From a virus: 27,895 nucleotides of DNA. The stretch spans positions 1 through 27,895 of the IMG/VR virus record IMGVR_UViG_3300030098_000113; one strand, given 5' to 3'. The notes under the pieces are model-generated. The model searched no databases. It was given only the letters and a program-made list of their open reading frames with translations, and was not told the DNA's origin. This document shows, in pieces, positions 5,109 through 26,420 of the stretch. Both the position numbers and the translations under genes were made by a program. The stretch's first letter is position 1. Each line of letters starts with the position of its first letter.

Positions 5109-5347
5109 TATGCTCTCCTGAACCTTGCTGTCTTTTTAGCAATCTTTTTTGGTTGCTTGACAAATTGTTTGCCCTTACGAGTTCCTTCCCTCTTAGCTTT
5201 GGACGTAGCTGCGTATTCTTGCGCCGACAAACTTTTGATTGCTGCTGCTGGTAAATACCGTTCACCCGTTTTACTGGACGGTTTCCCACTCTTTGTTCTC
5301 CAATCCTGCTTAGTCCATTGCTTTAGACTTTTCTGTGGTGCTTTCAT
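5108..5347 (-). CDS. Small basic conserved phage protein
   Basis: A 79-residue, strongly basic protein. It opens KAPQKSLKQWTKQDWRTKSG, continues KPSSKTGERYLPAAAIKSLS and ends in KGKQFVKQPKKIAKKTARFR. I recall very similar small proteins in cyanophages and pelagiphages, with the same order SLK.WT.Q.WRTKSGKPS..TGERYLP..AI..LS..EYAAT. Their function is unknown. The charge suggests nucleic-acid binding or a virion-associated role; that is inference. Its ATG shares the last base of the upstream stop (TAATG). Confidence 0.8.
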   Translation of the reverse strand: MKAPQKSLKQWTKQDWRTKSGKPSSKTGERYLPAAAIKSLSAQEYAATSKAKREGTRKGKQFVKQPKKIAKKTARFRRA

Positions 5348-6039
5348 TATTTTCGTGACTTCTCTATAGCTTTAAATGTTTCTCTTAAACTAGGCGGCTT
5401 CTCATTTTTAGGATCATACTTACACTGTATTTCTTTTGGAAAGTATTCGTGTAGATTTATCCAAACACTATCCACCGTATTGTTAGCACCATGATATATA
5501 CATAACCTTTCTCCGTCTATAGTCTGACATCCTTGTAATCTACACACTACATATTCAGGAGTTGCATTAGCTGCTAGACCTTTAAGAAATAATACAAACC
5601 CTAACAACATACCTGCGCCAATACCTGACATGACTATCCATGCTACAATTTCTACAAACTTACGTCTACGCTGTCTTTGTTTATATAATGTTTCTTGGCG
5701 AGATTTTCTAATTGTTCCTTCCATTTTAACAAGTTCATCCCACTTAGATTTACCCATAGTAAGGCCAATCCACTGCTGTAACTCTCTGCGTTGTGCTTCT
5801 GCTTTCTGTTTAGCAGCGAATGTCTCTATAGCTTCTTGTTCAATAGACTTGCCAGCAAATAGTTTTTTAAAAATAGGTGGATTCTTAGCCTCTTTCTCAA
5901 GCATGTCCAAGTCAGACATTGCGCCCATCCATCTAGACAAGTCAGATGCCATAGATTCAATGTCACGGCCTACTTGAAAGCCTTTCTTGATAGCACCAAA
6001 CGCTGCTGATGCTGTTGCCATTGCACTAATCGGGTCCAT
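5347..6039 (-). CDS. Membrane-anchored coiled-coil protein, unknown
   Basis: This 230-residue protein is unrecognised. It has a small-residue-rich N-terminus (ISAMATASAAFGAIKKGFQV), a long charged helical region (about 60-128) rich in E, K, Q and R, one strong membrane helix (about 131-153, VAWIVMSGIGAGMLLGFVLF), and a C-terminal domain of about 75 residues with four cysteines (166, 171, 180, 206) that could pair in the periplasm. A cytosolic coiled coil with an exported Cys domain is the simplest topology. It directly follows the oxygenase gene, with no intervening base. An envelope or virion-ejection role is possible, but nothing decides it. Confidence 0.75.
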   Translation of the reverse strand: MDPISAMATASAAFGAIKKGFQVGRDIESMASDLSRWMGAMSDLDMLEKEAKNPPIFKKLFAGKSIEQEAIETFAAKQKAEAQRRELQQWIGLTMGKSKWDELVKMEGTIRKSRQETLYKQRQRRRKFVEIVAWIVMSGIGAGMLLGFVLFLKGLAANATPEYVVCRLQGCQTIDGERLCIYHGANNTVDSVWINLHEYFPKEIQCKYDPKNEKPPSLRETFKAIEKSRK

Positions 6040-7119
6040 CTATGCTGCTTTCTTTATAGGGTTATTGGCCTCTACTCCCATCCACTTACTCCATTCAGCG
6101 TAGTAGTGTCGCATACCTACCTCATCGTGAATGGTTCTGTTCTCATGTCTACCGTGCAAAATATTACGAGGTTCCGTTCCGGGGCGCATTGTTGTACCCT
6201 GTCCAGCTACACCTATAAGGTCTTCGTGCAAGTTACGTCCAAACGGACCCCATATAGAGTTGTGATGTTCAATGCGTGTGTTTCGTTCTTCCGGTGTATC
6301 ACTCTTTAGTCCATAACCACGAAACTCAATCAATACTTTATCAGGCCCAAGAGGTGTTACGCTGTCGCTACGGTAGGCACTGCCTCGCAGGTTGAAGTTG
6401 TAGCCGGGAAACAAGTCTACCATGTACCACTGATTTGGTGGCAGGTTGGGAAAAGATAACTCGCCCCTATCTTCAAATCCCTGATACTCTTCATAGTTAA
6501 CAGTAAAGCTGCTAACATTAACATGACCATTGTCAAAAGGCACGTTTTTTCTAGCAAAGTATTCATCGTTAAATCCAGAGACACGATTGAAGTAATGCAT
6601 GAAGTCGTGGTAAAACTCGCTATTAGTATCATGCCACAGTTTGTAGTTTGTACCTATGATGGCTTTGTGGTAGTGAAATACTTCTAGTTCTTCTGCATCA
6701 ATAGCATCAGCAATGCAATCAAACGCCCCACAAGTCCACTCCTCCACACTCATGTCAGGGTTTTTATTTAGAGTAACCCAGATCATACCGCCATGCTTTA
6801 CTTCGCAGTGCAGTTCACCCCAGTCACGTGCGTGATAGCACAGAGATATATCATTACCTGCAGGTGATATAACTCCTTTATTTAGAAAAGACCTGTAGCC
6901 ATTGTCAAACTTAATGGTTATTATGTTTTGTCCAGCTATCTGTGCAGTCCTGTAACTGCCTATGTGTTCTATTTCACTTTTGTGAAATGCAGGAACCCAT
7001 ACCTTTGAAAAAATGTTTTCTAGTTCTTCTTCAAACAAACTCTGATCAGAGTATATGAGAGAGTTTACATACTCGACATTAGGCTCTTTAATCCAGTTCG
7101 TGTGATTGCGTGGTGGCAT
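6040..7119 (-). CDS. Atypical Rieske-type oxygenase, methanesulfonate monooxygenase alpha-like
   Basis: Rieske oxygenases pass electrons from a [2Fe-2S] cluster to a mononuclear iron that hydroxylates substrate; methanesulfonate monooxygenase splits methanesulfonate to formaldehyde and sulfite. In this 359-residue protein the Rieske part is abnormal. Where a CxH...CxxH pair is expected, the chain reads SFLNKGVISPAGND then LCYHARDWGELHC, leaving C94-x-H96 and C105-x3-H109 as the only candidates. The catalytic domain looks intact: N158-Y-K-L, then E168-x2-H171-x3-H175 (families usually have x4) and D300 in the HEDLIGVAGQG block. The start at 7119 has AAGGAT upstream and is coupled to the previous stop (TAATG). 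No reductase, ferredoxin or beta subunit gene lies nearby, so host partners would be needed. HMO-2011 is described as carrying an atypical methanesulfonate monooxygenase, which this matches; the substrate is not proven here. Confidence 0.8.
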   Translation of the reverse strand: MPPRNHTNWIKEPNVEYVNSLIYSDQSLFEEELENIFSKVWVPAFHKSEIEHIGSYRTAQIAGQNIITIKFDNGYRSFLNKGVISPAGNDISLCYHARDWGELHCEVKHGGMIWVTLNKNPDMSVEEWTCGAFDCIADAIDAEELEVFHYHKAIIGTNYKLWHDTNSEFYHDFMHYFNRVSGFNDEYFARKNVPFDNGHVNVSSFTVNYEEYQGFEDRGELSFPNLPPNQWYMVDLFPGYNFNLRGSAYRSDSVTPLGPDKVLIEFRGYGLKSDTPEERNTRIEHHNSIWGPFGRNLHEDLIGVAGQGTTMRPGTEPRNILHGRHENRTIHDEVGMRHYYAEWSKWMGVEANNPIKKAA

Positions 7120-8701: not shown

Positions 8702-8990
8702 GTTCTTTAGTCTTCCGCTTTTGGGCTTCTATAAATTTTCTAAATACTGCTGCTGCAGATTTTTTACCAGCTACTCTAGCACGTTGTTCCATAGCAATTG
8801 CTGCTTGTGTTTTGTGCGCATGTGATCGTCCAGATGCTTTTATTTTACGCACACTGGCTTCCGCATCTTTAACCGTAGCAAACTTTAAACCCTTTATAGT
8901 TCCTTTAGGGTCTTCATCTGTATATAGGTCACTATGCTTCTTAGACTTTGCGGGTTGGCCTTTTTTTCTTGGCACTCTTGGATTTGCCAT
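8682..8990 (-). CDS. Basic conserved phage protein
   Basis: A 102-residue basic protein. The ATG at 8990 is chosen over an in-frame ATG at 9026 because it has a perfect AAGGAG eight bases upstream, while the outer one has none. Sequence: MANPRVPRKKGQPAKSKKHS, then DLYTDEDPKGTIKGLKFATV, a helix VRKIKASGRSHAHKTQAAIA and a basic tail KRKTKERASRRS. I recall similar proteins in cyanophages (SDLYTDEDPKGTI..L.F....A..SV.KI..S.RSHAHK.QAA.AM.QRA). Role unknown; possibly virion- or nucleoid-associated. Confidence 0.8.
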   Translation of the reverse strand: MANPRVPRKKGQPAKSKKHSDLYTDEDPKGTIKGLKFATVKDAEASVRKIKASGRSHAHKTQAAIAMEQRARVAGKKSAAAVFRKFIEAQKRKTKERASRRS

Positions 8991-9052
8991 TAAGAACTCC
9001 TTGTAATGTTCTAGCTTGACCTGCATGTGTCTTAGAGGCTTTTTTTAAACCT

Positions 9053-9193
9053 TTAATTACTTTTTTTATTTTTGTTTGATTTCTTTTTTGCACTTGGTAA
9101 CAATCCTTTGTTTACAGCCCTTGCTCTTTCACTAAAGCCTAGTTTTTTCCCAGTTCGTATCTTACGTTTTATAGTAGATACTTTAGCAACCAT
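9053..9193 (-). CDS. 46-residue basic peptide
   Basis: A short gene below usual length cut-offs. Its ATG at 9193 shares a base with the stop of the upstream gene (TAATG), as elsewhere in this arm. The product begins MVAKVSTIKRKIRTGKKLGF, continues SERARAVNKGLLPSAKK and ends in KSNKNKKSN; more than a third of its residues are basic. It fills what would otherwise be a 166-nt gap. Function unknown; it fits the run of small basic proteins at 5.1-9.9 kb. Confidence 0.65.
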   Translation of the reverse strand: MVAKVSTIKRKIRTGKKLGFSERARAVNKGLLPSAKKKSNKNKKSN

Positions 9194-9636
9194 TAGACAT
9201 CAAAGCCCATATTGCGTACAGCAGCTTTGCCTTTTTCTGTCTTAGCCAACTGCCTCAAACCTTTGTTTGGCAACTTGTCAGTTACAGAACCGCCAGCAGA
9301 ATACATGTGCTTCTTGCCATTAGCCATACCACCCATTGCCATCTCAGCCTTCTTCATTTTCTTTAGTTTGCTTTTAGGCACAGTGCCAACACCGATTGAC
9401 ACAACCATTACATCATCCTTTTTCTTACCCATACTTAATCCACCTTTGTTCATTTCTAAATTAAATCCTTGGTCCATATTAATGTCATAAACATCTATTT
9501 CATTGTCTATAAATGTACGCAAGTCAGCCCTAAACCCTGCTTTTTTTAATTTGTTTCTAGTTTGAGCAGCAGTTGAATTACCCTTTACATACGAGTCAAT
9601 AATAGACTCTGCTTCCATTTCTCTCTTACTAGCCAT
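9193..9636 (-). CDS. Protein with KKM/GGM motifs, unknown
   Basis: A 147-residue protein with a helical, moderately acidic N-terminus (EMEAESIIDSYVKGNSTAAQ, LKKAGFRADLRTFIDNEIDV) followed by MNKGGLSMGKKKDDV and KSKLKKMKKAEMAMGGMANG, then YSAGGSV, and a C-terminal NKGLRQLAKTEKGKAAVRNM. The NKGG/GGM/KKM elements echo the tandem-repeat protein at 7984-8184. The family is not recognised. Starts at 9636, directly coupled to the upstream stop. Confidence 0.75.
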   Translation of the reverse strand: MASKREMEAESIIDSYVKGNSTAAQTRNKLKKAGFRADLRTFIDNEIDVYDINMDQGFNLEMNKGGLSMGKKKDDVMVVSIGVGTVPKSKLKKMKKAEMAMGGMANGKKHMYSAGGSVTDKLPNKGLRQLAKTEKGKAAVRNMGFDV

Positions 9637-9938
9637 TAGTATTTTCCCTTACGTGATTTAGGACTAGATTGTTTAGGCTTACCTGCCCCACCCCATAGAG
9701 TACGACATGCCCAATACCGTGCTGTCAATATGTCACTGGCTGTGTCACACTTGTGCCTAGCACGAAATGACTTACGGGCTGCAGCACTATAGTTGTGACC
9801 ATAGCCTGTAGCACCGAAGTGAATTAGTTTTATCTTGTCACCTTTCTTAGCCAACACCATCTTCTTCTTACCTTCACGGTTAGACTTGATGGGTTTATTG
9901 TAGCCGGGAAATGTAGTGCCACGATATTCTACACTCAT
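9636..9938 (-). CDS. Conserved phage protein with RKSFRARHKC motif
   Basis: A 100-residue basic protein. It starts SVEYRGTTFPGYNKPIKSNR, contains KKGDKIKLIHFGATGYGHNY, and then RKSFRARHKC (55-64) and ARYWAC (73-78). The RKSFRARHxC...ARYW.C core is widespread in tailed phages, often near head or tail genes, and may bind a metal through C64, C78 and H62, which is inference. Function unknown. It overlaps the upstream secreted-protein gene by 4 nt (ATGA). Confidence 0.8.
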   Translation of the reverse strand: MSVEYRGTTFPGYNKPIKSNREGKKKMVLAKKGDKIKLIHFGATGYGHNYSAAARKSFRARHKCDTASDILTARYWACRTLWGGAGKPKQSSPKSRKGKY

Positions 9939-10141
9939 GTGGATACACCCTTTTGTATTTCTTCACATTTAAAATAAAATTGTTTAGGGGTTGGTGGAAG
10001 AAGAGGATTAATATCAGTAATCATTTCTTCTATACGTGCCACACACTCTTTTTGTGTTTTGTACGGACCTTTATTGTCTGTAAACTTTGCACAGTCACCC
10101 GGTGTTACTAGGCTGCACACCATTACTATTGCTGTCAACAT
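9935..10141 (-). CDS. Small secreted cysteine protein (paralogue 2)
   Basis: A 68-residue protein with a clear signal-peptide-like start (MLTAIVMVCSLVTPGDCAKF), followed by TQKECVARIEEMITDINPLL and FYFKCEEIQ. The arrangement leader, K-x-C helix, proline linker, Y-F-K-C strand parallels the protein at 1580-1771. The mature domain could carry one disulfide. Probably exported to the periplasm; function unknown. Its start lies within the end of the preceding gene. Confidence 0.7.
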   Translation of the reverse strand: MLTAIVMVCSLVTPGDCAKFTDNKGPYKTQKECVARIEEMITDINPLLPPTPKQFYFKCEEIQKGVST

Positions 10142-10343
10142 CGTCTGTCCATCCTTCCTTACGCATAGCCCACTCTACGTGTTCAAGTGTGAAAGGACGA
10201 CCATAGTGTGCCTCTACTGCTTTACGTACGTAGAACACATCACTGTGAGGTATGTGTAATTTATCTAGTGTGTTATTTTTGATAGCATCATAAAATGCTC
10301 CAAGTACATTGTCTGTATATAGTTTTACAGATTTTTTTGCCAT
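10095..10343 (-). CDS. First gene of left arm, unknown small protein
   Basis: An 82-residue protein from the ATG at 10343 (a TTG two codons upstream is less likely). Sequence features: basic start MAKKSVKLYTD, helical middle (VLGAFYDAIKNNTLDKL), and an HTH-like second half, YVRKAVEAHYGRPFTLEHVE then WAMRKEGWTD. It is the first gene behind the strong leftward promoter at 10498-10526, so it will be made as soon as that promoter fires; a regulatory role is a guess. No strong ribosome site is visible. Confidence 0.65.
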   Translation of the reverse strand: MAKKSVKLYTDNVLGAFYDAIKNNTLDKLHIPHSDVFYVRKAVEAHYGRPFTLEHVEWAMRKEGWTDDVDSNSNGVQPSNTG

Positions 10344-10407
10344 TGTCAACTACTTTTTCTAGAAATACGAGATTTAGTCCATATGGGGTATATTAAATGC
10401 AGTATTA

Positions 10408-10475
10408 GATGTCTTAACATCTTTGTTTTTACATTTATATTTTTACATCTTTGTTCTTTTATTTATGTAAGAACA
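10408..10475 (-). other. Leader with two hairpins and direct repeats
   Basis: In the transcribed leader of the left arm there is a GATGT/ACATC hairpin with a 4-nt loop (10408-10421) and a GTTCTT/AAGAAC hairpin (about 10453-10474). The plus-strand text AACATCTTTGTT near 10416 recurs as TACATCTTTGTT near 10444. These are AT-rich and short; they may affect mRNA stability or be repressor sites. Confidence 0.35.
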
Positions 10476-10497
10476 TTTAATGTTATATTTAATATAC

Positions 10498-10526
10498 GTT
10501 ATACCACAACCCGAAAATTGTGTCAA
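10498..10526 (-). promoter_or_regulatory. Sigma70-like promoter for the left arm
   Basis: Read on the minus strand: TTGACA (10526-10521), a 17-nt spacer, and TATAAC (10503-10498), i.e. a consensus -35 and a one-mismatch -10 at ideal spacing. The spacer and -35 flank carry a CACAA...TTGTG inverted repeat (8-nt centre), which could be an operator. Transcription would begin near 10491 and run through a leader of about 150 nt into the first left-arm gene. Confidence 0.65.
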
Positions 10527-10662
10527 GCATAATCAACAAAAAACATCCAGTGTTTTATTGATTGCCTATTTTTTAAGCACAGTTGCACATTACTTGTGCA
10601 TATTATTTTATGAGTTACTCTTGTGGTTAACACTCTATTTTCCTGATCTGTGTATTTATCCA

Positions 10663-10678
10663 TATACGTATACGTATA
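10663..10678. repeat. 16-bp perfect palindrome
   Basis: TATACGTATACGTATA reads the same on both strands; it also contains overlapping TACGTA units. It lies between the leftward promoter and the GACTA region. A dimeric regulator site or origin element would look like this, but simple alternating pyrimidine-purine DNA is another explanation. Confidence 0.6.
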
Positions 10679-10724
10679 CCCTACGGGTGGCCCCTGCCTG
10701 CCCGTTTGATCTTCGCGGGTTATG

Positions 10725-10764
10725 GCGCATTTGGGACACTTTATATCTTATTCGCGCCATCATG
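10725..10764. repeat. Inverted repeat ATGGCGC...GCGCCAT
   Basis: A 7-bp perfect inverted repeat (ATGGCGC / GCGCCAT) separated by about 25 nt of AT-rich sequence, in the one GC-richer patch of the intergenic region. It could form a stem-loop or bind a protein at both arms. No terminator-like T-run follows. Confidence 0.35.
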
Positions 10765-10973
10765 CGATAAGAACCACAAGCCAATCAATAAAAAATCTAA
10801 TGTTTTCAGCAATCTAACACCATACAGTCAAGGCATATCCTATGAATTGACGCCAAGCCTTATGATATTGAATAGTTCACTTTCAAAACAGACACGAAAA
10901 ACAAAACGACGGTGCATGTTTATTTAACCCCAACCCCTAAAAAATTTACCTATTGTCTTAATCAGAATATTAT

Positions 10974-11001
10974 TTGTCGCTGTCAAGATAAAAACTATAT
11001 A
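10974..11001 (+). promoter_or_regulatory. Possible rightward sigma70-like promoter
   Basis: TTGTCG (10974-10979), 16-nt spacer, TATATA (10996-11001). Both boxes are imperfect and the region is AT-rich, so this is a weak call. It would produce a leader of about 580 nt containing the GACTA stretch and the structured RNA elements before the first right-arm gene. Confidence 0.3.
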
Positions 11002-11110
11002 CAATTCATTCATTATAAACCTATCGAACGCGACGAAGCGAAACGCTAACCCGCTAAGATAACGCTAGATAACCCTTAATCGCCAAGGCAACATAGGGCT
11101 AGGCATAAGA

Positions 11111-11281
11111 GACTAAAGAGACTTGACTACCTAATAAGACTAGACTAACGTAATGATACTAGCACGGTTTAAGCTAGGTGGTTAAACCCACGAATTACAC
11201 CACTACATTAGAGACGGATAGGCGACTACACTATAAGGTTTAGATACAAAAAGACGGAAGAATACAAAAACAAAAAGACTA
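11111..11281 (+). repeat. Cluster of six GACTA pentamers
   Basis: GACTA starts at 11111, 11125, 11138, 11143, 11224 and 11277, all on the plus strand, where about 0.2 copies would be expected by chance in 170 bp. The surrounding 11025-11290 is T-poor and purine-rich on this strand. Candidate explanations are protein-binding iterons at an origin or strand composition bias of a transcribed leader. Confidence 0.4.
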
Positions 11282-11327
11282 AACACTGTATCTTTTAAAT
11301 TTAAGCGTACCAACGCAAGTTAACCTG

Positions 11328-11380
11328 ATAGGCCACAAAGTGAAGTCTCAAACTACACTGGTTCAATGCCAGTGGCCTAT
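11328..11380 (+). ncRNA. tRNA-like T-arm plus acceptor hairpin
   Basis: A 7-bp stem ATAGGCC (11328-11334) with GGCCTAT (11374-11380) stacks, with no unpaired base on the 3' side, on a 5-bp stem ACTGG (11357-11361) with CCAGT (11369-11373) whose loop is exactly seven bases, TTCAATG, matching the T-loop rule TTCRANN. This is the acceptor/T-arm half of a tRNA. Only 22 nt replace the D and anticodon arms, so it is not a normal tRNA, and no CCA follows. An alternative pairing extends the outer stem to 9 bp (ATAGGCCAC/GTGGCCTAT). Transcription is inferred from the direction of the right arm. Confidence 0.45.
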
Positions 11381-11440
11381 ATGGCAAGCCTCAAGCGAAA
11401 GCTGTGGGTGAACAATGTCCGGGAACGTGCGGGCTATAGA

Positions 11441-11461
11441 ACTATGATTGAGTTACATAGT
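11441..11461 (+). other. Hairpin ACTATG/CATAGT
   Basis: A 6-bp perfect stem (11441-11446 with 11456-11461) around a 9-nt loop, between the tRNA-like element and the multibranched element. Probably part of the same structured leader. Confidence 0.35.
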
Positions 11462-11481
11462 CAAAAGGTGTCCTGTCAATT

Positions 11482-11537
11482 TAGGGGTGGAGTGTAGCGA
11501 CCATTAGTGGTAGTGTATGCCATGCACAAAGCCCCTA
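11482..11537 (+). ncRNA. Multibranched leader RNA element
   Basis: A closing stem TAGGGG (11482-11487) with CCCCTA (11532-11537) encloses two hairpins: ACCA-TTAG-TGGT (11500-11511) and GTGTAT-GCC-ATGCAC (11513-11527, one G-U pair). This three-way arrangement sits 47 nt before the start codon of the first right-arm gene, where a riboswitch-like or protein-binding control element would act. It matches no riboswitch class I know. The AT-rich repeats that follow could let the closing stem act as an attenuator, though there is no long U-run. Confidence 0.4.
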
Positions 11538-11540
11538 TCT

Positions 11541-11562
11541 ATTAATCAATTTATTAATCAAT
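11541..11562 (+). repeat. Direct repeat ATTAATCAAT x2
   Basis: Two exact 10-bp copies (11541-11550 and 11553-11562) separated by TT, immediately upstream of the ribosome site (AAAAGGTGA) of the first right-arm gene. Could be a tandem operator or a simple AT-rich leader. Confidence 0.45.
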
Positions 11563-11584
11563 AACTAAACTAAAAGGTGACACA

Positions 11585-12184
11585 ATGTCTGTAGAAAATA
11601 TACTTGCCATTTACAAATTGGCTACACCGGAAGAAAAACGGGACGGTGTCGTGTGGTATGCGGACGCATTGCGAGACTGTACACGCATTGCTACTGATTT
11701 AGAATTGCCTGTTCACAATGTGACAGGTGTTTGTGCGGCACTATCGCCGAACAACAAATGGGATAGAAACATTATCAATGCACGTGATCTGTGCGCGGCA
11801 TTTGTCAATGGTGATGGCATGGATAGCGTCAAGGTGTCCACCTACCACAAGATGAAACAAAAAGCGTGGTCAATACTAGAGGCAATGCCTGACCATGATG
11901 GCGTCATTGACATACTCAATGGGCAAAAGATTGTTTCATTCTATCGCAATATTATGGGTGATGATACTTGCACGATAGATGGACACGCACGCAATATCGC
12001 CTATGCTGAACGTGTAGGATTGACAAACGATAAGACCAATATTGGTGTCAAAGAATACAGGACACTACAAACAGAATACGTAGCCGCTGCCAAGCGTACA
12101 CGTGTTAATGGTCGCGCATTGAAAGCGTTTGAATTACAAGCCATTACTTGGGTGACATGGCGTAGAATACACAACATCAAGTGA
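11585..12184 (+). CDS. HhH-GPD glycosylase-like protein, first right-arm gene
   Basis: A 199-residue protein preceded by AAAAGGTGA. It contains AALSPNNKWDRNIINA (51-66), VSTYHKMKQKAWSIL (84-98), ILNGQKIVSFYRNI (110-123) and CTIDGHARNIAYAERVG (129-145). The last two blocks resemble the helix-hairpin-helix and the catalytic-Asp segment of endonuclease III-type DNA glycosylases (LPGVG.KTA... and V.VDTHV.R...), with D132 in TIDGHA at the catalytic position. The lysine of bifunctional glycosylases is not evident. I recall an uncharacterised phage family with these blocks. Base excision or recognition of modified bases is therefore an inference, and a non-catalytic role is possible. Being first behind the leader it is probably made very early. 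Confidence 0.75.
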   Translation: MSVENILAIYKLATPEEKRDGVVWYADALRDCTRIATDLELPVHNVTGVCAALSPNNKWDRNIINARDLCAAFVNGDGMDSVKVSTYHKMKQKAWSILEAMPDHDGVIDILNGQKIVSFYRNIMGDDTCTIDGHARNIAYAERVGLTNDKTNIGVKEYRTLQTEYVAAAKRTRVNGRALKAFELQAITWVTWRRIHNIK

Positions 12185-12196
12185 AGGGAAAAGCCA

Positions 12197-12406
12197 ATGC
12201 AAATGATGTTTGCTCAAATGTTGCGAATTGATACGGCAGCAGGTGGCAGGATTGCCAGCAATAGACAATTTATCAAACACTGTCACAAGGCATTAAAACC
12301 TGTTAGCAGATTGCGCGGTCATAGGACGGCACGCCATGCGTGGATACGTTCCGGCATTGAACAGCGAGACAGAATGGAAGCAAAATTGCGGATGTTTAAA
12401 CTATAA
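12197..12406 (+). CDS. Small basic protein, unknown
   Basis: A 69-residue arginine/histidine-rich protein (MQMMFAQMLRIDTAAGGRIA, then SRLRGHRTARHAWIRSG). A ribosome site (GAAGGGAAA) precedes the ATG. No family recognised. Its position right after the first early gene suggests an early host-interaction or DNA-binding peptide, without direct support. Confidence 0.6.
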   Translation: MQMMFAQMLRIDTAAGGRIASNRQFIKHCHKALKPVSRLRGHRTARHAWIRSGIEQRDRMEAKLRMFKL

Positions 12407-12426
12407 TAAATGGATGGGGTGACAAA

Positions 12427-12708
12427 ATGAACATTGAAAATCTATCTATTAATAGGCTTGTGCCTTACTATCTGATGAGTAGTTATCTGTATTATGAGGA
12501 AGACAAGCAGGTATTGACAGATAATGAGTTTGACGCATTGTGTAAGCGGTTATTGGATAATTGGGATACCATACAGCATATACACAAACATCTAATCACT
12601 AAAGGTGACTTGACCGCTGGCACTGGCTATGCTATCAAGTATACCAACATGATAATCGGAGCCGCCAATAGGTGGTATGAGTTAGCACAAAGTGAGGTGA
12701 CAAAATGA
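12427..12708 (+). CDS. Small protein resembling LigA domain Ia
   Basis: A 93-residue protein: RLVPYYLMSSYLYYEEDKQV, then LTDNEFDALCKRLLDNWDTI and HIHKHLITKGDLTAGTGYAI. The order YY...YYxxD...(L/I)(T/S)DxE(F/Y)DxL is that of domain Ia of NAD-dependent DNA ligases (YHYYVxDxPxISDAEYDxL), which binds the nicotinamide mononucleotide. No nucleotidyltransferase domain follows, so this is not a ligase by itself; I recall stand-alone phage proteins of this kind with no known role. NAD or NMN binding is speculative. The stop overlaps the next ATG. Confidence 0.7.
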   Translation: MNIENLSINRLVPYYLMSSYLYYEEDKQVLTDNEFDALCKRLLDNWDTIQHIHKHLITKGDLTAGTGYAIKYTNMIIGAANRWYELAQSEVTK

Positions 12709-12875
12709 CATTCGAGGAATTTATGAGAGAGTGTGACGCAATCTGTGAGGCAGAAATTGGCGTCGGTGTACATGACATGCCAGACTTATGTTGGCGTGAT
12801 TTTCACGAAGATGGTTTATCGCCACAGGATGCGATAGATTGTGCAATGGAAGAATGGGAAATGGATTGGATATGA
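12705..12875 (+). CDS. 56-residue acidic protein
   Basis: A short gene with ATGA overlaps at both ends (start within the previous stop, stop within the next start), which strongly supports translation. The product begins MTFEEFMRECDAICEAEIGV, contains HDMPDLCWRDFHEDGLSPQD and ends AMEEWEMDWI. DLCWRDxxxDGLxPxDA is typical of a small phage family of unknown function, as I recall. Highly acidic; possibly a DNA mimic or an inhibitor of a host protein, without evidence. Confidence 0.75.
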   Translation: MTFEEFMRECDAICEAEIGVGVHDMPDLCWRDFHEDGLSPQDAIDCAMEEWEMDWI

Positions 12876-13069
12876 CAATGGACAAGCAATACAAAACTAT
12901 TTATTTTGAACGCAAAGAAAATTGGGGTGAAGTTAGGTTCTATCCTAAATGCGACAAAACAAAATTTCTTGCGAGTTTGTGTGGGCGCAAGATATTCTAC
13001 AGGCAAGAAGTGCTTGACATTCGTGACAAGCTAGGCTATGAAGTAGAACTTACTAACACCACATTGTAA
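12872..13069 (+). CDS. Small protein, unknown
   Basis: A 65-residue product from the ATG at 12872, which is coupled to the previous stop; a start at 12839 would overlap needlessly. Sequence MTMDKQYKTIYFERKENWGE, then RFYPKCDKTKFLASLCGRK and a tail LGYEVELTNTTL. It looks like a small alpha/beta fold. No family recognised. Confidence 0.7.
   Translation: MTMDKQYKTIYFERKENWGEVRFYPKCDKTKFLASLCGRKIFYRQEVLDIRDKLGYEVELTNTTL
13014..13042 (+). promoter_or_regulatory. Possible internal promoter
   Basis: TTGACA (13014-13019), 17-nt spacer, TATGAA (13037-13042), inside the end of the previous gene and about 50 nt before the ATG of the next gene. Perfect -35, mediocre -10. It may give extra transcription of the basic-protein genes that follow. 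Confidence 0.3.
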
Positions 13070-13090
13070 CCAATATAAGGAGACTAAACC

Positions 13091-13270
13091 ATGTTTAAGA
13101 CTGTATTCACAAAGAACGTAGCAGGTGTAATTCGTAATCCTATCGGTGTAGAAAACCTGCAGTTTCGCCGTACTACTTCACGTTACAAGCGCAAAGGTAC
13201 ATTCAGTAACAACAAAGGTTATCTGTCAGTGTCACGCAATGCTGACGGTACATTTGCAAAACGTGCGTAA
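13091..13270 (+). CDS. 59-residue basic protein
   Basis: A short gene with a strong AAGGAG site. Product: MFKTVFTKNVAGVIRNPIGV, then RRTTSRYKRKGTFSNNKGYL and SVSRNADGTFAKRA. Basic and probably small and folded. No family recognised. The next gene starts inside its end. Confidence 0.7.
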   Translation: MFKTVFTKNVAGVIRNPIGVENLQFRRTTSRYKRKGTFSNNKGYLSVSRNADGTFAKRA

Positions 13271-13433
13271 ACTTACCAGAATAAATCCGGTAGCAAAGGC
13301 ACTTGCCTTGTCACGACGTAGGGCAAGTGTCGTACCGGATAAGACAAAATACAACAGAAAGCGAGACAAAAGAGATGTCGAAAAAAATACTTACATATCG
13401 GAAGCCAGTAAGAGTCAAGGCGATAGCGACTAA
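13263..13433 (+). CDS. Small basic protein (INPVAKAL motif)
   Basis: A 56-residue product from a GTG at 13263 that overlaps the end of the previous gene by 8 nt. It reads VRKLTRINPVAKALALSRRR, then ASVVPDKTKYNRKRDKRDVE. I recall small phage proteins with the core (S/N)PVxKAL...RxxVVxDKxKYxRK, function unknown. An upstream in-frame ATG (13239) is possible but would overlap more. A second basic peptide (13375-13509) overlaps it in another frame. Confidence 0.6.
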   Translation: MRKLTRINPVAKALALSRRRASVVPDKTKYNRKRDKRDVEKNTYISEASKSQGDSD

Positions 13434-13509
13434 ACGCAGGAAGCCTGTGGCAGCCATGCGTAAACAACAGCGACAGAACAAACAACAGCGACAGAAAATG
13501 GGATATTAA
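13375..13509 (+). CDS. 44-residue Lys/Arg/Gln-rich peptide
   Basis: From an ATG at 13375 preceded by AAAAGAG. Product begins MSKKILTYRKPVRVKAIATK and ends MRKQQRQNKQQRQKMGY, with an obvious QQRQ repeat. It overlaps the preceding gene by 59 nt in another frame, so one of the two may be spurious; the extension past 13433 argues that this one is translated. Function unknown. Confidence 0.45.
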   Translation: MSKKILTYRKPVRVKAIATKRRKPVAAMRKQQRQNKQQRQKMGY

Positions 13510-24458: not shown

Positions 24459-26420
24459 ATGAACAATTATTTACCAACAGACTATCAAAACTTCATCGCG
24501 CTATCACGGTATGCACGATGGAAAGAAGATGAACAACGCCGTGAAACATGGGCAGAAACAGTAGAACGATACTTTGACTATATGGAAGATCATTTATCAA
24601 AGATGGGTAGGCAAGGTTCGTCTGCAAAGAGTTACGCTATGCCTGTAGACTTACGTGCAGAACTAGAGGAAGCTGTGCTTAATCAAGACATAATGCCTAG
24701 CATGAGAGCATTAATGACTGCTGGCCCTGCATTAGATCGCTGTAATGTGGGCGCATACAACTGTTCCTATGTGCCTGTGGATAGCCCCAGAGCCTTTGAT
24801 GAAACTATGTATATACTAATGTGTGGCACGGGAGTAGGTTTCTCTGTGGAACGTGAAAACGTAGACAGACTACCTATCGTAAATGAGTCTATGCACGAGA
24901 CTGATACAGTAATCAAGGTTGGTGACTCTCGCCCCGGTTGGGCAAAGTCTTTGCGTGAACTTATCTCTTTGCTATATGCAGGTCAGATACCCAAGTGGGA
25001 TGTATCAGAGGTGCGTCCTGCTGGTGCAAGGCTCAAGACATTTGGTGGCCGTGCCAGTGGACCAGCACCCCTAGAGGAACTGTTTGAGTTTGTTATAGCT
25101 AAGTTCAAGGCCGCGACAGGTCGTAGACTGTGGCCCATTGAGTGCCACGACATCATGTGTAAGATTGGTGAGGTTGTAGTTGTAGGAGGTGTACGCCGTT
25201 CTGCTCTTATCAGCCTGTCTAATCTTGGTGATGACCAGATGGCACACGCCAAGTCAGGACAGTGGTGGGACACAGAACCACAACGTGCATTGGCTAACAA
25301 TAGCGTAGCTTACAAGGGTAAGCCAGAAATGGGTACATTCATGCGTGAATGGGTTGCTCTTTATGAATCTAAGTCAGGTGAACGTGGCATCTTTAATCGT
25401 GAAGCAGCAAAAAGACAAGCAGCAAAAAATGGAAGACGAGATTCACAACAAAGTTTTGGATGTAATCCCTGCAGTGAAATTATCTTGCGCCCATATCAAT
25501 TTTGTAATTTGTCAGAGGTAGTTGCTCGTGCTAGTGATACACAACAAACACTACGCGAAAAGGTGCGCCTAGCTACAATTTTAGGCACGTTCCAATCCAC
25601 ACTTACAGATTTCAAATATCTGCGTAAAGTATGGCAAAATAACACAGAGGAAGAAAGGTTACTTGGAGTATCTCTTACGGGTATAATGGATAACGACTTG
25701 CTTAGTGGTACATCAGCCCACCTTGGTAAAAATATTGGGCAGACACTTGAAACATTACGTGATACAGCAGTAGAGACTAACGCTGCTATGGCTAAACAAC
25801 TTGGTATACCACAGTCAACAGCTATCACGTGTGTTAAGCCTAGCGGCACAGTGTCGCAGCTTGTAGACAGTGCCAGTGGTATTCATGCAAGACACAACCC
25901 ACACTACATTCGTACTGTACGTGGCGATAACAAAGACCCTCTTACACAGTTTATGATGAGTGCAGGAGTGCCAGCAGAGCCAGATGTTATGAAGCCAGAG
26001 TCTACGACAGTGTTCAGTTTTCCAATGGCATCACCACGTGGGGCAGTTACACGTACAATCCTGTCGGCTGTTGAACAGCTTGAGTTATGGCTTACTTATC
26101 AGCGTCATTGGTGTGAACATAAACCAAGTGTCACTATAAATGTAAAAGAACATGAGTGGCTTGAAGTAGCAGCTTGGGTATATAAACACTTTGACGAGGT
26201 ATCAGGCATTAGTTTCTTACCATTTGATAATCACACGTACAAACAAGCACCATATCAGGACTGTACAGAGGATGAGTACCATGATATGGTAGCAAAGATG
26301 CCAAAGTCTATTGATTGGACATGGTTAAGAGATTATGAGAAAGAAGACACAACATCCGGTGGGCGTGAGTTAGCGTGTACTGCAGATGCTTGTGAGATTG
26401 TAGACTTAAACGCAGCATGA
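24459..26420 (+). CDS. nrdJ: Class II (B12-dependent) ribonucleotide reductase
   Basis: Reduces ribonucleotides (triphosphates in the closest characterised enzymes) to deoxyribonucleotides using a radical generated from adenosylcobalamin. The 653-residue protein matches the monomeric RTPR type of Lactobacillus leichmannii: NC102SYVPVD for the first redox cysteine, N336-P-C338-S-E340 for the thiyl-radical Cys and Glu, C349 eleven residues on (as 408 to 419 in RTPR), and a C-terminal shuttle pair C640/C645 (CTADACEI, same spacing as 731/736). It is shorter than RTPR (739), so loops or the allosteric region are probably reduced. No small subunit or activase is needed, so one gene is enough and it works without oxygen. 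The host must supply cobalamin. Confidence 0.93.
   Translation: MNNYLPTDYQNFIALSRYARWKEDEQRRETWAETVERYFDYMEDHLSKMGRQGSSAKSYAMPVDLRAELEEAVLNQDIMPSMRALMTAGPALDRCNVGAYNCSYVPVDSPRAFDETMYILMCGTGVGFSVERENVDRLPIVNESMHETDTVIKVGDSRPGWAKSLRELISLLYAGQIPKWDVSEVRPAGARLKTFGGRASGPAPLEELFEFVIAKFKAATGRRLWPIECHDIMCKIGEVVVVGGVRRSALISLSNLGDDQMAHAKSGQWWDTEPQRALANNSVAYKGKPEMGTFMREWVALYESKSGERGIFNREAAKRQAAKNGRRDSQQSFGCNPCSEIILRPYQFCNLSEVVARASDTQQTLREKVRLATILGTFQSTLTDFKYLRKVWQNNTEEERLLGVSLTGIMDNDLLSGTSAHLGKNIGQTLETLRDTAVETNAAMAKQLGIPQSTAITCVKPSGTVSQLVDSASGIHARHNPHYIRTVRGDNKDPLTQFMMSAGVPAEPDVMKPESTTVFSFPMASPRGAVTRTILSAVEQLELWLTYQRHWCEHKPSVTINVKEHEWLEVAAWVYKHFDEVSGISFLPFDNHTYKQAPYQDCTEDEYHDMVAKMPKSIDWTWLRDYEKEDTTSGGRELACTADACEIVDLNAA

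Follow-up and report, generated by a model that had tools for sequence, protein, structure and literature searches.

The stretch of DNA analysed here (the window, 27,895 nucleotides in length) carries on its minus strand a reading frame that runs from position 7119 to 6040 and encodes a 359 amino acid protein resembling the catalytic subunit of methanesulfonate monooxygenase (MsmA) without its Rieske cluster, with an AAGGA ribosome-binding site just upstream. The span of 6040-7119 given for this gene in an earlier note on the same DNA was correct, the frame being read on the minus strand. Next to it, in the same late operon, lies the gene of an uncharacterised protein (PHROG 32327; 5347-6039, minus strand), whose start abuts the oxygenase stop and which is not a part of the enzyme. 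The oxygenase gene stands among late genes, with structural genes on one side and lysis genes on the other, and the order of the late genes around it matches that of Puniceispirillum phage HMO-2011, where gp61, annotated as methanesulfonate monooxygenase, is 73% identical to the window protein over the full length. Neither PHROGs nor NCBIfam provided a specific name for the window protein. Since the large terminase is 89% identical to that of HMO-2011 and the neighbouring late genes come in the same order, the window is, judged by its genes, a phage of the HMO-2011 type; the same kinship, expressed in the terminase, points to SAR116 bacteria as its probable host.

Pfam recognised PF00848 in the window protein (28.2 bits, the cut-off being 24.9) and no PF00355 Rieske domain. 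The conservation of single residues was read from an alignment of 161 rows, comprising 160 distinct viral homologues and the window protein. N158, E168, H171, H175 and D300, all of which the earlier note had placed correctly together with C94, H96, C105 and H109, were kept in 161 of 161 rows, and the loss of H171, H175 or D300, which that note regarded as decisive against oxygenase activity, was seen in none of these rows. E168, H171 and H175 belong to the iron helix TNYKLWHDTNSEFYHDFMHYFN (residues 157-178; 6586-6651, minus strand), and the third iron ligand, D300, to the HEDLIGV segment (residues 298-304; 6208-6228, minus strand), in which H298, E299 and D300 are invariant in every row. In the family profile H171 corresponds to the first iron His and E168 to the bridging Asp of cumene/biphenyl dioxygenase; we take the role of E168 to be the connection of the iron site with the cluster of the neighbouring subunit. 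The 2-His-1-carboxylate ligands (H171, H175, D300) and the bridging acid (E168), as well as PF00848 and the alpha-subunit fold described below, are those of a Rieske oxygenase alpha subunit. The H-x3-H spacing, which had been noted as one residue too short, is indeed one shorter than the H-x4-H of the naphthalene dioxygenase type, but it is the normal and invariant spacing in the alignments of full-length MsmA and therefore no sign of decay. Over 67 sequence pairs the whole protein had a dN/dS of 0.066, the catalytic domain one of 0.035 and the iron helix one of 0.014, values which indicate that the viral gene is under strong purifying selection. The suggestion that the protein is no longer an oxygenase is made unlikely by this selection and by the iron site being complete in all rows.

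The structure of the window protein was modelled from an input alignment to which full-length MsmAs had been added, giving a mean pLDDT of 86.9 and a pTM of 0.88; an earlier model built from 16 near-identical sequences (pLDDT 43) was set aside. The best matches among solved structures were Rieske oxygenase alpha subunits, aligned across about 320 residues with Z about 31. Because residues 30-130 mostly exceeded a pLDDT of 90, the remnant of the Rieske domain (residues 38-116; 6772-7008, minus strand) is predicted to retain its beta-barrel scaffold, from which the cluster-binding loops are deleted. Full-length MsmA has the motif CxH-x26-CxxH, whereas the phage protein lacks the approximately 50 residues that bear it, namely CPH, the 26-residue spacer, CxxH and the next loop, and with them both Cys/His pairs. 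The two cluster-binding loops are replaced by a hypervariable loop (residues 72-104; 6808-6906, minus strand), which holds C94-x-H96, is the most variable stretch of the protein and has the highest regional dN/dS (0.185, versus 0.066 overall).

The absence of CxH...CxxH, already remarked in the earlier note and borne out here by the motif search and by Pfam, extends to the whole viral family: the motif was found ahead of the iron helix in none of the 260 viral loci examined (some of which overlap on the same contig), all with the architecture of the window protein, versus 61 of 63 cellular full-length frames. On these counts the loss of the motif is not due to chance. As one way out, a compact [2Fe-2S] site of new geometry had been suggested, with C94, H96, C105 and H109 as ligands, and all four residues do occur in the window sequence. 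Each of them varies among the relatives, however: out of 161 rows C94 is kept in 15 (with a gap in 100), H96 in 49, C105 in 119 and H109 in 135. Moreover, C105 aligns with an extra, non-ligand Cys and H109 with Phe/Tyr of full-length MsmA, the HMO-2011 and SAR116 copies lack the complete set of four, and the loop is the very region with the highest dN/dS. As a family trait the compact cluster is refuted by this ligand variation, and the chance that such a site is formed at all is, in our estimate, close to nil.

Relatives in bacteria were sought by scanning 84,980 genomes. Full-length MsmA is present in many other proteobacteria (e.g. Filomicrobium, Hyphomicrobium); it is 50-61% identical to the window protein across the whole length and has in common with it the iron motif NYKLWHDTNSEFYHDFMHY, HEDLIGV and H-x3-H. 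Chromosomes of SAR116 (Puniceispirillaceae) encode Rieske-less copies, 72-74% identical to the window protein, which together with HMO-2011 gp61 belong to the same family (72-75% identical) and have the same deletion. Whereas the phage copy stands alone, the SAR116 copy is normally found in the company of msmB/msmC/msmD genes, in an msm operon with a cluster-bearing partner. In Candidatus Puniceispirillum AH-135-F23 (L092) this operon encodes an 815 amino acid partner, MsmB, MsmC, an uncharacterised protein and, last, the Rieske-less protein; a divergent ABC transporter lies beside the operon, and a TauE-type exporter and folate C1 genes come after the Rieske-less gene. The partner derives from MsmA: its cluster motif is perfect, a catalytic domain is not recognisable, and an FAD reductase forms its C-terminal part. 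Accordingly it has PF00355, Pyr_redox_2 and Reductase_C without PF00848, the Rieske-less protein has PF00848 without PF00355, and full-length MsmA has both. The same gene order was seen in 10 contigs, and 3 more are cut by contig ends; two SAR116 genomes have the partner on the opposite strand at a distance of about 11 kb, and in one of them it is split into a Rieske and a reductase ORF. In SAR116 the partner is usually fused to the FAD reductase; at L231 (14189-16575), in one genome, a reductase ORF and the ORF of a Rieske half, its iron site wrecked, adjoin each other in place of the fusion.

The two proteins have lost complementary parts. When nine key residues were compared in one alignment, full-length MsmA had C,H,C,H and N,E,H,H,D in 10 of 10 sequences, the bacterial Rieske-less copies kept N/E/H/H/D in 17 of 17 without the cluster motif, and the partners kept C,H,C,H in 15 of 15, with Glu, both His and Asp gone. 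Two partners retain the iron helix with its residues exchanged (E168K, H171Q, H175K in L229; E168K, H171Q, H175N in L094); the remaining thirteen have lost the helix altogether, and none of the 15 has the D300 segment. The L229 and L094 partners represent an intermediate state, in which point changes preceded the deletion of the helix, and the decay of the iron site looks like progressive loss following a duplication. Among 61 Puniceispirillaceae genomes both halves were present in 12 (in one of them a contig end cuts the partner short) and neither in 49, counts that, the genomes being related, do not amount to independent events; full-length MsmA was found in none of the 61. On the evidence of these alignments it was shown that the SAR116 enzyme is divided into a cluster protein without an iron site and an iron protein without a cluster.

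In an ordinary Rieske oxygenase every alpha subunit combines a Rieske [2Fe-2S] domain with a domain for the mononuclear iron, and the cluster of one subunit delivers its electrons to the iron of the next. Since the electrons cross from subunit to subunit, cluster and iron can be housed in separate polypeptides. We therefore regard it as probable that the phage protein is the catalytic half of a split Rieske oxygenase of the methanesulfonate monooxygenase type, fed by a Rieske/reductase partner of the host. The sequences lend support to this through the complementary loss, the co-occurrence, the invariance of the iron site, the purifying selection and the absence of the partner from viruses; the invariance of E168, given its role between the iron and the neighbouring cluster, fits a surviving electron donor. 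Of the possibilities raised in the earlier note, that the protein works without a cluster of its own is the one that stood, the SAR116 relatives sharing their operon with a cluster-bearing, iron-less partner. In those parts of the model that we infer, namely the physical complex, the electron route, the substrate and the benefit to the phage, the phage catalytic subunit would join the Rieske/reductase partner and the MsmB of the host during infection, adding to or replacing the host catalytic subunits, and the cluster of the host partner would supply electrons to the iron of the phage subunit, as NdmD does to NdmC. By oxidation of methanesulfonate, or of a sulfonate related to it, the mixed enzyme would release sulfite and a C1 unit, both of which the phage might gain; the near-identical iron helix and the msm operon of the relatives point to methanesulfonate, and the C1 gain would fit, without showing it, the folate C1 genes beside the L092 operon. 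It speaks against the model that a mixed trimer would give at most one productive pair of neighbouring cluster and iron, so that the oligomer may have changed. That a phage provides one subunit of a host complex is known from cyanophage psbA, a likeness which is an analogy, the proteins and the pathway being unrelated to Msm.

A division of this kind has a precedent in the caffeine N7-demethylase NdmC/NdmD of Pseudomonas putida CBB5, where NdmC is a mononuclear-iron oxygenase without a cluster and the Rieske domain is on the reductase (PMC4408171). The NdmC-type split, with a cluster-less catalytic subunit and the Rieske domain on a reductase-linked protein, is found in SAR116, whereas the phage has the first half only. 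The donors differ in build: NdmD consists of an FMN-type reductase, a plant-type ferredoxin and an extra Rieske domain, while the SAR116 partner has Pyr_redox_2 and Reductase_C instead and, unlike NdmD, joins what is left of an MsmA, its iron site dead, to an FAD pyridine-nucleotide reductase. No counterpart of the GST-like NdmE was found, the one uncharacterised gene of the operon being without Pfam or NCBIfam match, and in the Ndm system no phage is involved.

Other readings of the phage protein have to be weighed against the split enzyme. Peroxide shunts are known among Rieske oxygenases. The protein might thus be an oxygenase independent of any cluster, with its iron site fed by hydrogen peroxide or directly by MsmC, the Rieske ferredoxin encoded in the same bacterial operons, and both the intact iron site and the fold predicted without cluster loops agree with this. 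We nevertheless hold it to be unlikely, as it leaves unexplained the perfect cluster motif of the partner together with the loss of every iron ligand there, and the co-occurrence in 12 of 12 genomes versus 0 of 49; ordinary full-length operons have MsmC too. Against the split enzyme it may be said that MsmC could be the electron donor instead, and that the gene also has relatives in T4-like phages.

Inhibitors of host enzymes are common among phage gene products, and a protein missing one redox centre could be inserted into mixed oligomers as a decoy or regulatory subunit, poisoning or retuning the host enzyme without catalysis of its own. For such a role an invariant iron site is not needed, yet E168, H171, H175 and D300 are kept in every row and the dN/dS of the helix is 0.014; besides, the bacterial version is a standing member of the msm operon, and the reciprocal loss in the partner is left unexplained, which makes a decoy distinctly improbable. 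Reuse of the fold in a binding, structural or virion protein would suit a gene that lies between structural and lysis genes, but it is at odds with the invariant iron ligands, the selection pattern, the operonic bacterial counterpart and the annotation of the HMO-2011 counterpart as an enzyme gene, and hardly any probability is assigned to it.

Concerning the distribution in viruses, at least 597 stretches of IMG/VR encode the Rieske-less protein. None of 80 viral loci had an msmB/C/D homologue within 5 kb, and whereas MsmA is encoded with MsmB, MsmC and MsmD in bacteria, none of the three was found in the window phage. A partner query against viral contigs returned two generic reductases and no Rieske half, and a full-length MsmA query exclusively Rieske-less copies among the best 80 matches. 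Among HMO-2011-type isolates in the phage collection the gene is present in the SAR116 phage only, the Roseobacter and SAR11 phages being without it. It was also found in phages without HMO-2011 genes (at around 5001-6100 in L295, L302, L298 and L333, and at 8001-9089 in L095), and T4-like backgrounds are suggested by the neighbouring genes, among them those for ribonucleotide reductase, glutaredoxin and baseplate-like proteins. L095 and L096 are contigs from MAGs labelled 'Rickettsiales' and 'Hellea' with a lone Rieske-less gene, and their genomes yielded no Rieske half derived from MsmA; they are probably phage contigs, because L095 at least has phage genes. In free trees the SAR116 copies fall within the phage radiation. 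Trees with all phage copies constrained together were not rejected (AU p 0.095, 0.074 and 0.565), therefore no direction of transfer is claimed. It is conceivable, though we find it rather doubtful, that the cluster-less subunit arose in phages as a plug-in on the full-length MsmA of their hosts and was later captured by a SAR116 ancestor, whose own MsmA then lost its iron site and became fused to a reductase; if so, a bacterial two-part enzyme was built around a phage gene.

The absence of the motif was reported in 2015 for HMO-2011, viromes and one of the two MsmAs of IMCC1322 (PMC4433239). Later SAR116 surveys score msmA as present, the accessible parts of them making no remark on the motif, and reviews take the oxidation of methanesulfonate by phage MsmA for granted. 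In the literature searched we found no description of the fusion partner, of its lost iron site or of a phage carrying one half, although other papers may contain one. Under the split-enzyme model the decade-old oddity of a cluster-less 'MsmA' in one of the most abundant marine phage groups would be explained as a half-enzyme that finds its complement in the host. The division of a Rieske oxygenase into cluster and iron proteins would be known from a second, independent system, with the intermediate still visible, and would offer a natural test of the rule of electron transfer between subunits. To count a phage or SAR116 'msmA' as a complete methanesulfonate monooxygenase would then be definably wrong, and the viral role in marine organosulfur turnover becomes directly testable with a few purified proteins.

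Some further features of these loci may be mentioned. L229 is from a closed genome, probably that of IMCC1322, the strain that HMO-2011 infects, an assignment with which the two MsmAs reported for this strain, one of them with the motif, agree. At L229 a DMSO-reductase-like molybdoprotein set (A, B, C; 8912-13502) separates msmC from the Rieske-less gene, which fits the neighbourhood of msmA and dmsABC given for the genus of IMCC1322 in PMC8547437. A family of about 275 amino acids without Pfam or NCBIfam match (L092 6921-7742, L229 13555-14385) is linked to msm genes at split and at some full-length loci; the 274 amino acid gene was considered as specific to the split system, an idea refuted by relatives in 11 loci with full-length MsmA. 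Two MAGs labelled Planktomarina and Marinovum (L089, L093) contain a complete split msm operon grouping inside the SAR116 copies, a placement that suggests misbinning or transfer. In the window itself, the plus strand encodes a B12-dependent (class II) ribonucleotide reductase (24459-26420), whose Pfam matches are weak, as well as MazG, DUF7178 and T5orf172 genes. On the minus strand a SET-domain gene (PF00856; 7622-8184) directly follows and overlaps the gene of a 66 amino acid protein made of Lys/Met/Gly repeats (GGGMAKMAKKKKM...), and the two products could be a candidate phage lysine methyltransferase and its substrate.
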